DNA of 35,247 nt, from positions 1 through 35,247 of the forward strand of contig JAMBEQ010000097.1 in the NCBI GenBank assembly GCA_024506175.1, in the 5' to 3' direction. The notes beneath the pieces are model-generated. The model worked only from the letters and a program-made list of their open reading frames with translations. It was not told the origin of the DNA and made no database searches. Position numbers and translations under genes: made by a program. Each line of letters opens with the position of its first letter. The stretch's first letter is position 1. This DNA is from Methylocystis sp. (GTDB taxonomy: Bacteria > Pseudomonadota > Alphaproteobacteria > Rhizobiales > Beijerinckiaceae). Positions 8,609 to 17,943 of this stretch are shown in pieces.

Positions 8609-11600
8609 CTAAATACGGCGCAACCCCTCGATGATCGCCGCCGCGCGCGGCATGGAAAAAAGCTTTTCGATCGGAAGCCCGCGTCTTCGTCGCCAGTTGG
8701 GCCGCTCCAAATTCGTGCCCGGAAGATTCACGGCGACGCGTTCGCCTGCAAGGTCGTCGAGCTGCGCCATGGCGAGCAGGGAAGGCGCGCGGGCGATAAA
8801 TATATGCAACGCCGAAGCAAGCGCATCACTGAAAGCGCGATCGACCGGGTCTTCAATGAGCCCTTCGTGTCTCAACGCTTCGAGGAGCGCGCGCTTGTCG
8901 TTTTGGCGGATTGCGCGTTCGGCTGCCGCGGTTTCCGGCGCGAGGAGCCCGAGCCGTTCCTTTTCATCGATGTCCGCATTTGACCACCAGCCTTCCAGGG
9001 TTGGAAGATCATGCGTGGAGACGCAAGCCATGGCCTTCGCCGGATAATCGCGCGGCGGGATGAAGCGCTCGCCAGCGCGCTCGAACAAAATCACGCGGTA
9101 GCTTAGCACATTCGCCGCCGCGAGCCGTTCACGGAACCCAAAAGGCAGGGTGCCGAGGTCTTCGCCCACGACAATGCATCTCCCGCGATGGCTTGCGATC
9201 GCAAGTTGCGCGACGAGCGCATCGAGCGGGTAGGAGACATAGGCGCCCGCCGCCGCTGTTTCGCCCTCAGGTATGAGGAACAGCCGCGCAAGCCCCATTG
9301 CGTGATCGATGCGCAGCGCCCCTGCGTGACGCATATTGGCTTGGACCAATTCCGCGAAATCCGCGCCGCCGTCGTCCTCCATCGCCAAGGGATTTGGCGC
9401 CGGTAGGCCCCAGCTCTGGCCTTCGCGGCTAAAGGGATCGGGCGGCGCGCCGATCGAAACGCCGTCGAGCAGGCGAGAGGCCTTGCTCCAGCTCTCGGCG
9501 CCATCAGGCGCGGCGCCGACGGCGAGATCACGGCAAAAGCCAAGCGAGAGGCCCGCGTTTCGCGCGTCTTGCGCCGATTGTGAAAATTGCCAATCTGCAA
9601 CCCACTGCACAAATCGGTGAAAACGCAGGCGGGTCATGTGCTCCTGCGCGAAAGCGGCGAGCGCTTGCGGGCTGCCGTCGCGCAAGTCCTGCGGCCATTG
9701 GCGCCAATTCTCGCCGCCGCGCGCTTCGCTGATCGCCTCGAACAGCGCGAAGCGCGTCAGCGCCTCGCCGCCATCGGCGACGAAGCGCATGAAATCCATG
9801 ACCGGCGCGGCGTCCGTCTGCCCATGCGCAACCGCATCGAAGCGCGCGAAAGCGGCTTCGAGCGCCTGCCGCTTCAAGGCGTGAACGGCCGGGTAATCGA
9901 CCGCGTCACGCGCTGAGAGCGCCTGGGCCGCTGCTCGGTCGAAATCTACTCCAAGGCCGTCAAGATCGATGTAGAGCGCATCGAGAAAGCGCCGGTCCGA
10001 AGGATAATAGGGACTCGCGCGCGTGCGATCCTGCGCGAAGAGCGCATGCAGCGGATTGATGGCGACAAGCGCAGCGCCGGCCCCGGCGCTTTTGCCCGCA
10101 AGCCGTGCAAGCGTCGTGAAATCGCCGATCCCCTGATCGCCCTCCCGCCGCAAGGAATAGAGCTGCGCTGAAAAGCCGAACTCCCGCCGCTCTTGCGGCA
10201 AATAGCAATGCGCCGGCGCGACGGCGAGATGGCAAGGAGCATCGTCGCCTTCCGTAAGCAATCTGTAGCGGCCCATGGGCAGCGGAGGCAGTTGCGCGCG
10301 ATAGCCGTGATGGAGACGGCCGTCCGCGCCGCGCCACACATAGGGCTGCAAGGCTGACAGCGCCAAAGCGCGCTGGTTTCTCCTGTCCTCGTCCATGACG
10401 AAGAGGGCGGGGGGAACGGTCCCGTTTGGCGCGGCGAGCCGCAGGGTTATCCGCTCATTCTCAAGCGCGACGGCGTGTTGTGGAAGCGTGCGCCAATCGC
10501 GAATTTTCGTGAGACGGGCGAGGCTATCTGTCGCATCCGCGCGCGTTTCCGCCGGCAGGCCGAGGCTCGTCAGAAGCTTCAGCAGAGTCTCGCGCGGAAC
10601 ATTGTGCACGGCGCCTTCGACGTCGTTCCAGTGTGTTGAGACACCCGCCGCTTTGGCGAGCCGCGCGAGCAAAGCATCGTCGACGGGAGCCGGCGGCCGG
10701 GACGCCTGAGTCTTTTCCTCGACGACTAGCAGAACGCTGCGCGGCGATGCTGTGAGCGTTGTTGAAATGCTCGTCTGCGCGATGGTCTCAGAAGCGTCGA
10801 AAGCAATACGCCATTCGTAACCGTCGCGCGCGGGAGGAGGGCTTACCTCCAAAGGCGCGGCGCCGCGATGGAGAATCACGAGCGCCCGGTCGGCGTCCGT
10901 ATAGAAACAAACAATGAGCGTTTCGGCGTCGCTGCGCCGCCAATCCTCCTCACGCATCGGCGCGCCATCGGCCCGGAGCCATACGGCATCGGGAATGAGC
11001 GCGCCGTCATGCGCGTCGCCGTCGAGGAAGCGGTCGTCGCGCAGGGCGATATGCGCCTTGCGCAGCGCGATCAGCCGCCCGGTCGCCTCGATCAGCGACT
11101 GATCGACGCTCGCCCAATCGAGCCAGCTTGTTTTATTGTCCTGCGCATAAGCGTTGTTATTGCCGTTTTGCGTATGGCCGAGTTCGCCGCCCATGGAAAG
11201 CATGGGCGTTCCGCGCGAAAAGAGCAGCGTTGCAAGCAAATTGCGCTGATCTCTCTCTCTCGCCGCTTTGATGACAGGATCGTCGGTCTCGCCTTCTGCG
11301 CCGTTGTTCCAGGAGAGATTGTCGTGCGCGCCGTCGCGATTATCCTCGCCATTCGCTTCATTGTGTTTGCGTTCGTAAGAGACGAGATCGCGCAGTGTGA
11401 AGCCGTCGTGGGCGGCAATGAAATTCACGCTTTGTGACGGGCTGCGGCGCGCGAAGAAATCTTGGGAGCCGGCGAAGCGGGTGGCGAGCTCCGCCACGCC
11501 CGCTGCGTCGCCGCGCCAGAAGCGCCGGGCGCAATCGCGATAGCGGTCGTTCCATTCCGCGAAGGGTGCGGGAAAACGCCCGAGCTGATAGCCTCCGGGT

Positions 11601-12712
11601 CCTATGTCCCAAGGCTCGACAATGAGTTTCAACTCGCGCAGCACGGGGTCTTGCAACAACGCAGCAAGGAAGGGCGCATTGCGGTCGAATCCCGAAGGAG
11701 CCCGCGCCAGCGTCGTTGCGAGATCGAAGCGAAAACCGTCGACGCCGCCATAGATCGCCCAGGCGCGCAACGCATCCATGGCGAGACGCACGACAGGCGC
11801 GCGGTCGAGGGCGAGAACATTGCCGCAGCCCGCGTCATTCACATAGCGCGCGCGGTCGTCGGCAAGGCGATAGTAGCTCGCATTATCGAGCCCGCGCAGG
11901 GAGAGCGTCGGCCCCAACTCGTCGCTCTCGCCCGTATGGTTGAAAACCACGTCGATGATGACTTCGAGCCCCGCTGCATGCAGCGCCGCGACCGCCTCAC
12001 GCACCTCGCGCCATCCGCCCGGCGCGAGACGCGGATCGGGGGCCATCACGGCGATTGGATTATAGCCCCAATAATTATCGAGCCCCAGCGCCGGCAGATG
12101 GCGTTCGTCGATCCACGCCGCGCAGGGCATCAGCTCTATCGTCGTGACGCCGAGCTTCGCGAGGTGCGCGATCGACGCTGCATGCGCGAGTCCCGCGAAT
12201 GTGCCGCGCAGCTGCAGCGGCACGTCGGGATGCGTCGCCGTGAAACCCTTGACGTGCGCTTCATAAATGATTGTGTCCCGCCACCAATGCCGCGGGCGCG
12301 ACGGCGGCGCCGCTTGCGGGCGCGTCACCACGCATTTTGAAACAAAGGGTGCGCTGTCTTCGCGTGCGGCCTCGCCATAAGCGAACATGCTTTCATGCAG
12401 CGTCAGCGCGCGATCGAGCGCGAGCGCGTAAGGGTCGACGAGAAGCTTGGCGCCATTGAAGCGCTGGCCTTCATGTGGGGCGTCAGAGCCGTAGGCGCGC
12501 AAGCCATAGCGCTGGCCTTCTTTCAGTCCTTCGATGTGGCCATGAAAGACGTCGCCGCTGCGCGCCGGCAGTCTTACGCGCGTTTCTACCCCGCTTTCAT
12601 CGAAAAGGCAGAGATGGATTTCTTCGGCATGGGCGGAGTAGACGGCGACATTGGCGCCGGTTTCATCCAGCGTGACGCCGAGGGGCTCGGAGGCGCCGTG
12701 GGGAATGCGCAT
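8609..12712 (-). CDS. glgX-malQ: Bifunctional glycogen debranching enzyme GlgX / 4-alpha-glucanotransferase MalQ fusion
   Basis: One uninterrupted 1367-residue reading frame contains two enzymes. Residues 1-670 are a complete GlgX: CBM48-like N-terminus, then a GH13 domain with H259 (VVFNHTGES), nucleophile D330 (GVDGFRFD), acid/base E366 (LIVEPWD) and D436 (AAHDGFTLRD). Residues about 675-1367 are a complete GH77 MalQ: FGFSAQLYSLRR, nucleophile D1136 (ALRIDHAMG), E1184 (VVGEDLGT) and D1235 (STHDLPTLE). By family knowledge GlgX cuts the alpha-1,6 stubs left by phosphorylase and MalQ rearranges the freed maltodextrins, so the fusion couples debranching to recycling. All six key acids are present, so both halves look active. 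It follows glgA after 172 bp of palindromic sequence and ends with TAG. Confidence 0.93.
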   Translation of the reverse strand: MRIPHGASEPLGVTLDETGANVAVYSAHAEEIHLCLFDESGVETRVRLPARSGDVFHGHIEGLKEGQRYGLRAYGSDAPHEGQRFNGAKLLVDPYALALDRALTLHESMFAYGEAAREDSAPFVSKCVVTRPQAAPPSRPRHWWRDTIIYEAHVKGFTATHPDVPLQLRGTFAGLAHAASIAHLAKLGVTTIELMPCAAWIDERHLPALGLDNYWGYNPIAVMAPDPRLAPGGWREVREAVAALHAAGLEVIIDVVFNHTGESDELGPTLSLRGLDNASYYRLADDRARYVNDAGCGNVLALDRAPVVRLAMDALRAWAIYGGVDGFRFDLATTLARAPSGFDRNAPFLAALLQDPVLRELKLIVEPWDIGPGGYQLGRFPAPFAEWNDRYRDCARRFWRGDAAGVAELATRFAGSQDFFARRSPSQSVNFIAAHDGFTLRDLVSYERKHNEANGEDNRDGAHDNLSWNNGAEGETDDPVIKAARERDQRNLLATLLFSRGTPMLSMGGELGHTQNGNNNAYAQDNKTSWLDWASVDQSLIEATGRLIALRKAHIALRDDRFLDGDAHDGALIPDAVWLRADGAPMREEDWRRSDAETLIVCFYTDADRALVILHRGAAPLEVSPPPARDGYEWRIAFDASETIAQTSISTTLTASPRSVLLVVEEKTQASRPPAPVDDALLARLAKAAGVSTHWNDVEGAVHNVPRETLLKLLTSLGLPAETRADATDSLARLTKIRDWRTLPQHAVALENERITLRLAAPNGTVPPALFVMDEDRRNQRALALSALQPYVWRGADGRLHHGYRAQLPPLPMGRYRLLTEGDDAPCHLAVAPAHCYLPQERREFGFSAQLYSLRREGDQGIGDFTTLARLAGKSAGAGAALVAINPLHALFAQDRTRASPYYPSDRRFLDALYIDLDGLGVDFDRAAAQALSARDAVDYPAVHALKRQALEAAFARFDAVAHGQTDAAPVMDFMRFVADGGEALTRFALFEAISEARGGENWRQWPQDLRDGSPQALAAFAQEHMTRLRFHRFVQWVADWQFSQSAQDARNAGLSLGFCRDLAVGAAPDGAESWSKASRLLDGVSIGAPPDPFSREGQSWGLPAPNPLAMEDDGGADFAELVQANMRHAGALRIDHAMGLARLFLIPEGETAAAGAYVSYPLDALVAQLAIASHRGRCIVVGEDLGTLPFGFRERLAAANVLSYRVILFERAGERFIPPRDYPAKAMACVSTHDLPTLEGWWSNADIDEKERLGLLAPETAAAERAIRQNDKRALLEALRHEGLIEDPVDRAFSDALASALHIFIARAPSLLAMAQLDDLAGERVAVNLPGTNLERPNWRRRRGLPIEKLFSMPRAAAIIEGLRRI

Positions 12713-12884: not shown

Positions 12885-14336
12885 TCAGCTCCGCGCGGCA
12901 ATCGCCTCCCGATAAAGCGCCGCATATCGCCGGGCCGGATGTCGCCAGGAGACGTCCGCGCCCATGCCGTTCGACTGCATTTTGCGCCACGTTTTCTTGT
13001 CCTTGAAAACTCCCTGCGCCTTGCACAGCGCGACTGCGAGCGTTTCCGCCGTCGGCGGCGAAAACTGAAAGCCTGTCGCGACGCCAGCTTGAAGCGCCAT
13101 GTCGTTGGCGTCGATGATCGTATCCTTCAAGCCGCCGACGCGCGAGACGATCGGCACAGCGCCATAGCGCAGCGCGTAGAGCTGCGTCAGCCCGCAAGGT
13201 TCAAAGCGCGAGGGTACGAGAAAAGCATCAGCGCCCGCTTGTATGAGATGCGCCATATTCTCGCTGTAGCCGATCCAGACGGCGACGCGGCCGGGATAGG
13301 CTTCTTGCGCGGCGAGAAAGCTCTCTTCGAGATGTTTTTCGCCTGCGCCGATCAGGGCGAGCTGGGAATGGCGCGCCATCATCGACGGGAGATTCGCAAG
13401 CAGCATATCGTGGCCTTTTTGCCAAGACATGCGACTCACGACGCCCAAAAGAAAAGCGTCCGGGTCCGCGTCGAGATGCATGCGCTTTTGCAACGCCGTG
13501 CGATTTTCTGTGCGGACCGAGAGGGTGGAGGCGTCGTAACGCGCGACAATGCGGGTGTCGGTTGCGGGATTCCAGACATTCTCATCCGCGCCGTTGAGAA
13601 TCCCGTTCACGATCTCGGCGCGGGCGCGCAGGAGGCCGTCGAGGCCCATGCCGAATTCGGGCGTTTCGATTTCCTGCGCGTAGCTCGGCGAGACGGTCGT
13701 GATGCGATCGCAGAGCTGCAGGCCTGCCTTGAGAAAGCCGATCGAGCCGTAATACTCGACGCCTTCCATACGGAAGGACGCAGGCGGCAGGCGCAGCGGC
13801 GCGAGGAGCTCCTTGGGAAATTGACCCTGAAACGCAATGTTGTGAATGGTGACGACAGTCGCCGGCCGAGGTTTGCCGCTGTAATGCGAATAAGCGGGCG
13901 CGAGCGCCGCCTGCCAGTCATGCGCATGCAAGACATCCGGCGCGAAGTCGGCGAGGGCGCCTTGCGCGATCTGCGCGCCAACCCAAGCGAGCGCGGCGAA
14001 GCGGAAGGCGTTGTCGGGATAATCGATCCCCTGTGCGTCCGTGTAAGGCCCACCCGTGCGCGCATAAAGATGCGGCGCAATGAGCGTATACACGATCGCC
14101 TCGTGGAGACGTCCCGCATGCACCCATGCAGGCCCGCCGAAGAGATCGTCGAAAGAAAGAACCGTCTCGCCCGCGCCGAGCGCGTGAAGAACCTCCGGAA
14201 AACCCGGAACCAGCGTGCGCGTCTCGACGCCTTCGTTCGCAAGCGCGCCGGGCAGGGCGCCCACGACATCGGCGAGCCCGCCCGTTTTCACGAGCGGGCT
14301 CATCTCCGAGGCGACGGCAAGAACGCGAAGGGTCAT
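12885..14336 (-). CDS. glgA: Glycogen synthase GlgA (ADP-glucose-dependent)
   Basis: The protein has 483 residues, the normal length for bacterial GlgA. The N-terminal ADP-glucose binding signature is [15 protein letters not shown] (K17). The C-terminal GT5/GT-B half shows [11 protein letters not shown] and the acceptor/active-site loop [17 protein letters not shown], followed by VGGLKDTI. By family knowledge it adds glucose from ADP-glucose to the non-reducing ends of alpha-1,4-glucan in the cytoplasm. Its ATG (14334-14336) overlaps the glgC stop by 4 bp, so the enzyme pair that makes and uses ADP-glucose is translationally coupled. Confidence 0.96.
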
Positions 14337-15595
14337 GAAGCCAGCCTGTCGATCATCGGCTGCGTAATGAGGCAGATGCCCTGTTCCGTGCGGCGGAAGC
14401 GGCGCGCATCCTCTTCCGGGTCTTCGCCGACGACGAGACCCTGTGGAATACGCACGCCGCGATCGACCACCACATTCGCAAGCCGCGCAGAACGGCCGAT
14501 ATCGGCGTAGGGCAGGATGACCGCGTTCTCGACCGTGGCGTAGGAATTCACGCGCACGCCGGTAAAGAGAAGCGAACGGCGCAGCGTCGAACCCGAGACG
14601 ATGCAGCCGCCCGAGACGAGCGACGACAAGGCCTGTCCGCGCCGCCCGACCTGGTCGTGCACGAATTTCGCCGGCGGCGTGATCTCGGCATATGTCCAGA
14701 TCGGCCAGTTGCGATCATAAAGGTCGAGCTGCGGCGCGAAATCAGTGAGGTCGATATTCGCCGCCCAATAGGCGTCGACCGTCCCGACGTCGCGCCAATA
14801 GGCGTGCTGCTCACTCGCCGCGCGCACGCAGGAGCGCGAGAAATGATGCGCCACGGCTTTGCCGTGCTTCACAATATAGGGGATGATGTCCTTGCCGAAG
14901 TCGTGCGTGGAGCTTGCGTCCCCCGCGTCCCGGCGCAACTGCTCGTAAAGAAACCTCGCCTCGAAGACATAGATCCCCATGCTGACCAGGGCGCGGTCGG
15001 GATGGCCGGGCATGGCGGGCGGGTCGGCGGGTTTTTCGAAGAAGGAGATGATGCGGTCGTCGTGATCGACATGCATCACGCCGAAGCCGCTCGCTTCGCT
15101 GCGCGGCACCTCCAGACAGCCAACCGTGACGTCCGCGCCCTGCTCCACATGCTGCTGGAGCATGGGTTCATAATCCATCTTGTAGACGTGGTCGCCGGCA
15201 AGCAACACGATGTATTTCGGATCGTACCCTTCGATGATGTCGAGGTTCTGATAGACGGCGTCGGCTGTGCCGAGGTACCAGTGGTCTTCGGAAACCCGCT
15301 GGCTCGCGGGGAGAATGTCGAAGCTCTCGTTTCGCTCGACGCGAAAGAAGCTCCAGCCGCGCTGCAAGTGCCGGATCAGGCTGTGCGCCTTGTATTGCGT
15401 CGCCACGCAGATGCGCCGAATTCCGGAGTTGAGCGCGTTCGACAGCGCAAAGTCGATGATGCGCGACTTGCCGCCGAAATAGACCGCGGGCTTGGCCCGA
15501 CGGTCGGTCAATTCCATGAGCCGTGAGCCGCGTCCGCCCGCGAGCACATAGGCCATGGCGTGGCGCGCGAGCGGTGGATTTTCATAGGCTGCCAT
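14333..15595 (-). CDS. glgC: Glucose-1-phosphate adenylyltransferase GlgC
   Basis: The protein has 420 residues, full length for the family. The nucleotidyltransferase signature is [20 protein letters not shown] followed by KPAVYFGG and [27 protein letters not shown] carries the metal/substrate acid. The C-terminal left-handed beta-helix shows the hexapeptide rhythm ([28 protein letters not shown]). By family knowledge it makes ADP-glucose from ATP and glucose-1-phosphate, the committed and usually allosterically controlled step of glycogen synthesis. The start ATG at 15593-15595 lies 35 bp past the end of the full-length glgB frame. Confidence 0.96.
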
Positions 15596-15630: not shown

Positions 15631-15963
15631 TCATTGTAGAGGAGCGCTTTCGAATTCGAAGAACAAAGTCGAAAGCGGCGGCAGTCGAATTTCCGCGCTT
15701 GCCGGAAAGCCGGCGAAGGCTTCTCCCTTCGCTTGGACGCCGCCGAGATTGCCCTGCCCTGAGCCGCCGTAAAGGGACGAGTCCGAATTGAGGACTTCCC
15801 GCCAGCGCCCGGCGCAGGGGAGGCCCAGCCGATAATTGGGGCGCGGGACGGGCGTGAAGTTGGACACGACAAGAACCGGCCTTGAGCGGTCGGCGCCGTA
15901 GCGCAGAAAGGCGAAGACGGCGTTGTCCGCATCGTCCACTACGACCCATTCGAAGCCCTCGCG
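15631..15963 (-). pseudogene. glgB: Orphaned C-terminal beta domain of GlgB downstream of the amber codon
   Basis: The same frame as glgB runs from just after the TAG to a TGA at 15631-15633. It encodes REGFEWVVVDDADNAVFAFL, then VLVVSNFTPVPRPNYRLG, GRWREVLNSDSSLYGGSGQG and LPPLSTLFFEF. These are the standard C-terminal alpha-amylase-type beta-sheet motifs of GlgB (NFTPVPR, REVLNTD, YGGSGQGN). The domain is intact, with no further stop or frameshift, which argues for a very recent lesion, a sequence error or readthrough. Separate translation is unlikely because no good start site is seen. Confidence 0.8.
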
Positions 15964-17838
15964 CTAGCAGTCGCGCGCATGGAGCGCCTCGTGGCCTCGA
16001 TAAAGGCGGTTCAGGTCACGCACAAAGTCGTGCAGGCCTCTGTGCGGGGCGTGGTCGAGCAGCCCCCAGTCGAGCTCGCTCGCATAATCCCATTCGCGCG
16101 TCTGGCCGAATTCCTGCCCCATGAAAAGGAGCTTCTTGCCCGGGTGTCCCCACATGAAACCGTAATAGGCGCGCGCGCCGGCGAAGCGCCGCCATTCGTC
16201 TCCCGGCATCTTCGACACGATCGAGCCTTTCCCGTGCACGACCTCGTCGTGCGAGAGCGGCAACACGAAGTTTTCCGCGAAGGCGTAGAGCAGGCCGAAG
16301 GCCAGCTCATTGTGGCGCCATTTGCGATAGACCGGGTCAGACGACATGTAGCGCAGCGTGTCGTTCATCCAGCCCATGTTCCACTTGAAGCCGAAGCCTA
16401 GTCCGCTGGTGTAAACCGGGCGAGTGACGCCGGCCCAGGCGGTCGATTCCTCGGCGATGGTCATAGCGCCATGGCGCCGCTCATAGACGAGCGTATTGAA
16501 CCTTTGTAGAAAAGCGACGGCGTCGCGATTGTCGTTCGAGCCGTCGGGGTTCGGCGTCCATTCGCCCGGCGTTCTCGAGTAGTCGAGATAGAGCATGGAG
16601 GCGACGGCGTCGACGCGCAAAGCATCGATATGAAAGCGATCGAGCCAATAGAGCGCGTTGGCGATAAGGAAATTCGCCACTTCGCGCCTGCCGTAGTCGT
16701 AGATCGCCGTGTTCCAGTCTGGATGAAAGCCCCGTCGCGGGTCAGGATGCTCGTAAAGCGGGCCACCGTCGAATTGCGCGAGGCCATGTTCGTCGGTCGG
16801 GAAATGCGCGGGAACCCAATCGAGAACGACTCCGAGCCCCGCTTGATGCGCGCGATCGACGAAGCGTTTGAAGCCTTGCGCCTCGCCATGGCGTCGCGTC
16901 GGCGCGAAAAGGCCAATGGGCTGATATCCCCATGACGCGTCGAGCGGATGCTCGTTGATTGGCAGGAGCTCGATATGGGTGAAGCCCAAGCCAGCGACGT
17001 AGGGGATCAGCAGATCGGCGAGTTCATCATAGGTGAGAAAGCGCCCGCTTTCCCCCTTGCGCCAGGAGGGTAGATGCGCCTCGTAGATGGACATGGGCGC
17101 ACGGCGTGGGTCGCGCTCGGCGCGCGCGCGCATATGGCGCTCATCGCCCCACTCATAAGGAGCGTTTGAGGCAACGACCGAAGCGGTCGAAGGGCGCAGC
17201 TCCGCCTCAAAACCGAGCGGGTCGGCTTTCAGCGGCAGGAGGTTCCCGTGGCGGCCGACGATCTCATACTTATAGACCGCGCCGACGCCCACTCCGGGGA
17301 GGAAAATCTCCCAGATACCGCTATCGACGCGTTTGCGCATCTGAGCGCGCCGGCCGTCCCATTGGTTGAAGTCGCCGACGACGGAGACGCGCTTCGCATT
17401 CGGGGCCCAGACAGCGAAATTGGTTCCCTCGACCCCCGCGTGCGTGACGACCTGGGCGCCCAGGCGCTCGTATAGCTTCAGATGCGCGCCCTCGACGAGA
17501 AGATGGTCGTCCATCGCGCCGAGGAAAGGCGGGAAAGCGTAAGGATCGACGAAGCGCCACTGCGCTTCGCTGTTCGAGGCGGCGAGACGATAGGCGGCGC
17601 GGGCCTCGAGCGGGGTCAGCCCTTCGAAAAAACCGTCCGGATGGACGCGCTCGAGCGCCGCGACGCTTTCGCCTCGAGGCGTCTCGACGGCAACCCTCCC
17701 GGCGCCGGGAACGAAGGCGCGGATCGCGACGCCCTCCGCCGTCTGGTGCGGACCGAGCAGGGCGAAGGGATCGCCATGCCGGGCGGCGACGAGCGCCGCG
17801 ATCTCGCTGGGATCAGCCCGCCAGTTGGGTTTTTTCAT
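15964..17838 (-). CDS. glgB: 1,4-alpha-glucan branching enzyme GlgB, interrupted by an in-frame TAG at codon 625
   Basis: The first 624 codons encode the two N-terminal CBM48-like modules ([31 protein letters not shown]) and the GH13 catalytic domain with D410 ([10 protein letters not shown]), E463 ([10 protein letters not shown]) and D531 ([12 protein letters not shown]). The frame then meets TAG at 15964-15966 (ARDC-stop), yet continues in the same frame with REGFEW and a normal GlgB C-terminal beta domain to 15631. Read through, the protein would be about 735 residues, the usual length. Related enzymes typically read DCEPEGFEW here, so one G-to-T change (GAG to TAG) explains it. It could be a real nonsense mutation, a sequence error or a suppressed codon. 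The start at 17838 ([10 protein letters not shown]) is preferred over an in-frame ATG at 17922. It heads glgB-glgC-glgA-glgX/malQ. Confidence 0.88.
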
Positions 17839-17943
17839 AAGGCCCCGATGATCCGTTTTGCGGGTCTTCGGTATGATGGCCTCTCCGGCGGCGTTCGGAA
17901 AGGCGCGCGCGCGTAATTCCAACGCGAACGCTGGTTCGAATCC

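Follow-up and report, generated by a model that had tools for sequence, protein, structure and literature searches.

An in-frame TAG codon in the sole glgB found in a draft Methylocystis genome, very probably an ordinary nonsense difference

A stop codon can arise by a single substitution in a gene that is otherwise conserved, both in recent pseudogenes and as a nonsense error of a draft genome. When one in-frame stop turns up alone in a fragmented draft, the frequency of lesions across that draft should be taken into account. For the glycogen branching enzyme GlgB of E. coli, excerpts of a published study (PMC10254366) describe glucan-binding sites VIII and XI as involving the C-terminal domain.

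Here we describe a glgB frame that carries an in-frame TAG just ahead of this domain. It lies in the window, that is, the whole stretch of 35,247 nucleotides that was analysed. This TAG very probably has no function in itself and is an ordinary nonsense difference. No published report of this glgB lesion was found in the literature searched.

The glgB frame and its setting

The glgB frame (15631..17838, minus strand) has 735 codons, from the ATG at 17838 to a stop ending at 15631, in agreement with the length of about 735 residues first proposed for the protein without the TAG. Codon 625, at 15966-15964 on the minus strand, is TAG, and the translation around it reads HARDC-stop-REGFEW. The 110 codons past the TAG are still in frame and open to the normal end.

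The upstream piece (15967..17838, minus strand; searched as 15967-17868) matches the Pfam domains GlgB_N, CBM_48 and catalytic Alpha-amylase. The downstream piece (15634..15963, minus strand) matches Alpha-amylase_C at 2.8e-27. This match begins at the sixth residue of the piece, so the stop sits at a domain boundary, where the C-terminal all-beta domain of GlgB adjoins the catalytic region. With the frame open to 15631 and both pieces matched, the preliminary description of an otherwise intact glgB split by a TAG holds. Membership of the GlgB family is indicated by GlgB_N, CBM_48 and the catalytic domains; Alpha-amylase_C is not in the same uninterrupted frame, since it sits behind the TAG.

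The next gene 3' of glgB is glgC (14333..15595), followed by glgA, for glycogen synthase (12885..14336). Both are on the minus strand and intact, as judged by domain search and comparison with relatives. On the same strand, a domain search finds an intact fusion of 1367 aa (8609..12712), with a debranching-type region (CBM_48, Alpha-amylase) and GH77. This debranching-type/GH77 4-alpha-glucanotransferase fusion is kept in four relatives, at 1367-1373 aa.

The draft genome has 266 contigs totalling 3.37 Mb, with a completeness of 97.12% and a contamination of 1.57%; the window is its contig 97. One AMO-family (PmoA-like) match in the genome makes the organism a probable methanotroph. A second complete glgB, which had been proposed as a check, was not found in the draft genome: the search gave one GlgB match, and the remaining Alpha-amylase match belongs to the 1367-residue GH77 fusion. 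A replacement was also sought in the genome, and no GH57 enzyme was found.

The TAG codon in relatives and constraint past the stop

A glgB match is present in 26 of 39 genomes of the genus, the window's own included, and absent from 13. Considering only the better genomes (>=90% complete, <=5% contaminated), 24 of 30 have a match and 6 do not. Strong glgC matches occur in the same 26 genomes, by our own count among the matches listed. Column counts in the genus use 24 other copies; a 25th relative, L024 (genome G021), was left out on account of a deletion. Near position 1500 of L024, on the minus strand, an out-of-frame deletion of ~50 bases lies in glgB just upstream of the TAG spot, with glgC intact.

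At the TAG codon (15964..15966, minus strand) all 24 aligned genus copies have Glu, encoded by GAG in 19 and GAA in 5. This comparison, one of the checks first suggested, fits the view that a single G-to-T change explains the TAG: where the catalytic and C-terminal regions meet, a codon for Glu would have been changed to TAG, and one substitution from GAG suffices. The motif Glu-Pro-Glu-Gly-Phe-Glu-Trp expected for relatives has to be corrected, as the 24 copies read C-E-(S/A/T)-(E/D)-G-F-(E/Q)-W and Pro is the next residue in 44 of 80 loci outside the genus, where it is the commonest. The codon right after the TAG is CGC (Arg) in the window, with AGC in 12 of the relatives, GCC in 11 and ACG in one.

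The 80 loci outside the genus were retained from 593 confirmed ones. In none of them is the aligned glgB frame interrupted by a stop, three of the alignments ending early, and no stop at the TAG column was found among the 24 genus and 80 outside relatives. Outside the genus, this column holds 13 residue types, with Glu in 30 of 80. The idea of a special conserved residue at the TAG site was dropped in view of this variability.

As for the sequence past the stop, the dN/dS of the tail is 0.15-0.19 between the window and four relatives, and 0.12-0.24 for the six pairs among those relatives. The window is within this control range, therefore no old decay is seen, and the tail is undamaged as first noted. 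The tail dS against the same four relatives is 0.64-0.85, and had the lesion arisen at the base of the branch, many more changes and further stops would be expected. Since the tail still looks constrained at the sequence level, the lesion would be either recent or an error.

Two weak hints of faster change in the tail stand against this. The ratio of protein differences in the tail to those upstream is 1.48-1.70 for the four pairs with the window, against 1.11-1.31 for the six relative pairs. On a fixed tree, the window branch has a length of 0.205 for the tail and 0.105 for the upstream part, so that the ratio is 1.95, compared to 1.27 for the whole tree. This weakly hints at some relaxed constraint, favouring a real mutation over an error, although ratios as high are seen in L004 (2.1; 0.068 to 0.032) and L009 (3.5; 0.021 to 0.006, a very short branch); those of L026 and L012 are lower than the window's.

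Private changes at otherwise invariant glgB columns were also counted. Upstream, the window has 6 in 340, the highest of 25 copies, with L027 next at 5. In the tail it has 1 in 42, and the others range from 0 to 2. This count did not separate error from evolution.

Sequence error or recent mutation

Within the ordinary nonsense difference that we favour, two origins come into consideration. A consensus error of the fragmented draft has about an even chance of being the source of the TAG. A real and recent nonsense mutation, in a gene on its way to loss, is a serious candidate with a probability somewhat short of even.

In a partial survey, the window and ~412 kb of other contigs of the draft were compared with 1.66 Mb of the relative G023, which left 153 stretches (150 pairs) in the draft direction and 144 in the reverse direction. 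Before sorting, the script's output was 6 stops and 3 frameshifts for the draft, as against 6 stops and 0 frameshifts for G023. A first, smaller survey, also unsorted, had given 13 stops and 3 frameshifts over 89 draft stretches, and in the reverse direction 6 stops and 0 frameshifts over 84. A third comparison set G023 against G006, G007 and G008 around the glg region; its 67 stretches showed 9 stops and 2 frameshifts. Such raw counts make the survey a weak one.

Flagged queries were scanned with Pfam: four from the G023 comparison other than glgB, four from the reverse one, and two of five from the third. No Pfam domain was found in the flagged L180:2251-2916, L195, L198, L232 and L152:1889-2542. 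For L180:6409-7329, L302, L306 and L153, the stop is close to an overlong start and comes before the domain. Manual sorting attributed most of the stops flagged by the script to overlong starts or shadow frames, and these were discarded. In a chemotaxis receptor (L226 against L193) a TGA also precedes the matched domains. This lesion was accepted because the codons ahead of the TGA look coding: 74 of the 87 are identical, and 39 of the 55 base differences are in third positions.

The accepted lesions of the draft are thus glgB, the chemotaxis receptor (TGA at L193 ~9784), ComEC (L169 ~1152), a response regulator (L192 ~4140) and a DUF3280 protein (L175 ~1948). The last three are single-base frameshifts with Pfam matches on either side, the one in ComEC being in a run of T. 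In the reverse direction, none of the 144 pairs shows an accepted lesion in G023. For the hand-sorted difference, 5 of 150 against 0 of 144, the one-sided p is 0.033 and the two-sided p 0.061; counting just the frameshifts, 3 against 0, p is 0.13. This excess is no more than suggestive of sequence error, and the lesions could also be real pseudogenes. The sequence-error option raised earlier thereby gains some support from the other lesions of the draft. A tRNA-Lys copy lacking one anticodon-loop base was counted as a further point for error.

On the side of real loss, we counted the glgB deletion in G021 and the absence of a match from 6 of the 30 better genomes. Against a poor contig, no other broken gene was seen by eye in the window, which beyond ~17.9 kb was compared almost only with G008 and in its last kilobase with none.

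If the TAG is real, ribosomes would stop after 624 residues, giving a GlgB without the C-terminal domain. This shortened enzyme would probably be unstable or poorly active, and the glycogen less branched. Reduced function is plausible by analogy, because the excerpted E. coli work describes some glucan-binding sites as involving that domain (PMC10254366). A real mutation would also offer a natural test of the role of the branching-enzyme C-terminal domain, the genus having no glgB match in 13 of 39 genomes (6 of 30 better ones).

Readthrough, split function and comparison with known systems

Readings that give the interrupted gene a function, through readthrough or a functional split, are jointly quite improbable. 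In the first, a suppressor or near-cognate tRNA would read the TAG and some full GlgB would be made. Its appeal is a tail that is in frame and conserved, but we consider it very unlikely. TAG is a common normal stop here: among 107 conserved full-length genes sampled from the genome, 29 end in TAG, 66 in TGA and 12 in TAA, so TAG is not depleted as a terminator. The genome has three RF-1-domain proteins. The suppressor tRNA proposed as a check was not seen, none of the 37 tRNA hits having a CUA anticodon; the set is incomplete, as tRNA-His and tRNA-Ile are missing from it. Around the stop, the RNA shows no more folding than shuffled sequences do (z +0.44), and the lack of a stop at this column in any of the genus and outside relatives also counts against readthrough. 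On TAG usage, tRNAs, RF-1 and folding, and within the limits of the draft, we rejected recoding, a suppressor tRNA and structured readthrough. The earlier view that genome-wide TAG recoding is unlikely stands on the sequence data, while its option of a tolerated or read-through codon found no positive evidence, with no RNA structure and a variable column in the 80 outside relatives.

One tRNA, at L136 1501-1575 (G000:C56), is left unnamed by ARAGORN and is tRNA-Lys-like. Its anticodon loop is one base shorter than in the matches in G023, G007, G006 and G008. The genome has a further tRNA-Lys(CTT), named as such by ARAGORN, on contig 257. As a suppressor the L136 tRNA was rejected, being tRNA-Lys-like and not CUA.

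The second reading, a functionally split glgB, is more doubtful still. Here the 624 residues and a reinitiated C-terminal domain would assemble, or the truncated enzyme would work alone. The break at a domain boundary suits it, as does an in-frame GTG at 15939, the ninth codon past the TAG, which would start a product of 102 aa. By eye, however, no well-spaced ribosome-binding site lies ahead of this GTG, none of the 24 genus relatives has a stop at the TAG codon, and the involvement of the C-terminal domain in E. coli sites VIII and XI, in the excerpts cited (PMC10254366), counts against this reading. Lastly, a real TAG in the only glgB, yielding truncated and some full-length GlgB by leaky readthrough, with both forms tuning glycogen branching, is just as doubtful.

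The ordinary nonsense difference therefore remains our reading of the locus. Like full-length bacterial GlgB (GH13), the window encodes all four Pfam domains in one frame, 5' of glgC and glgA; unlike it, an in-frame stop at codon 625 cuts off the C-terminal domain. In this the window resembles recent pseudogenes or draft nonsense errors, with a single substitution and a stop in an otherwise conserved gene.
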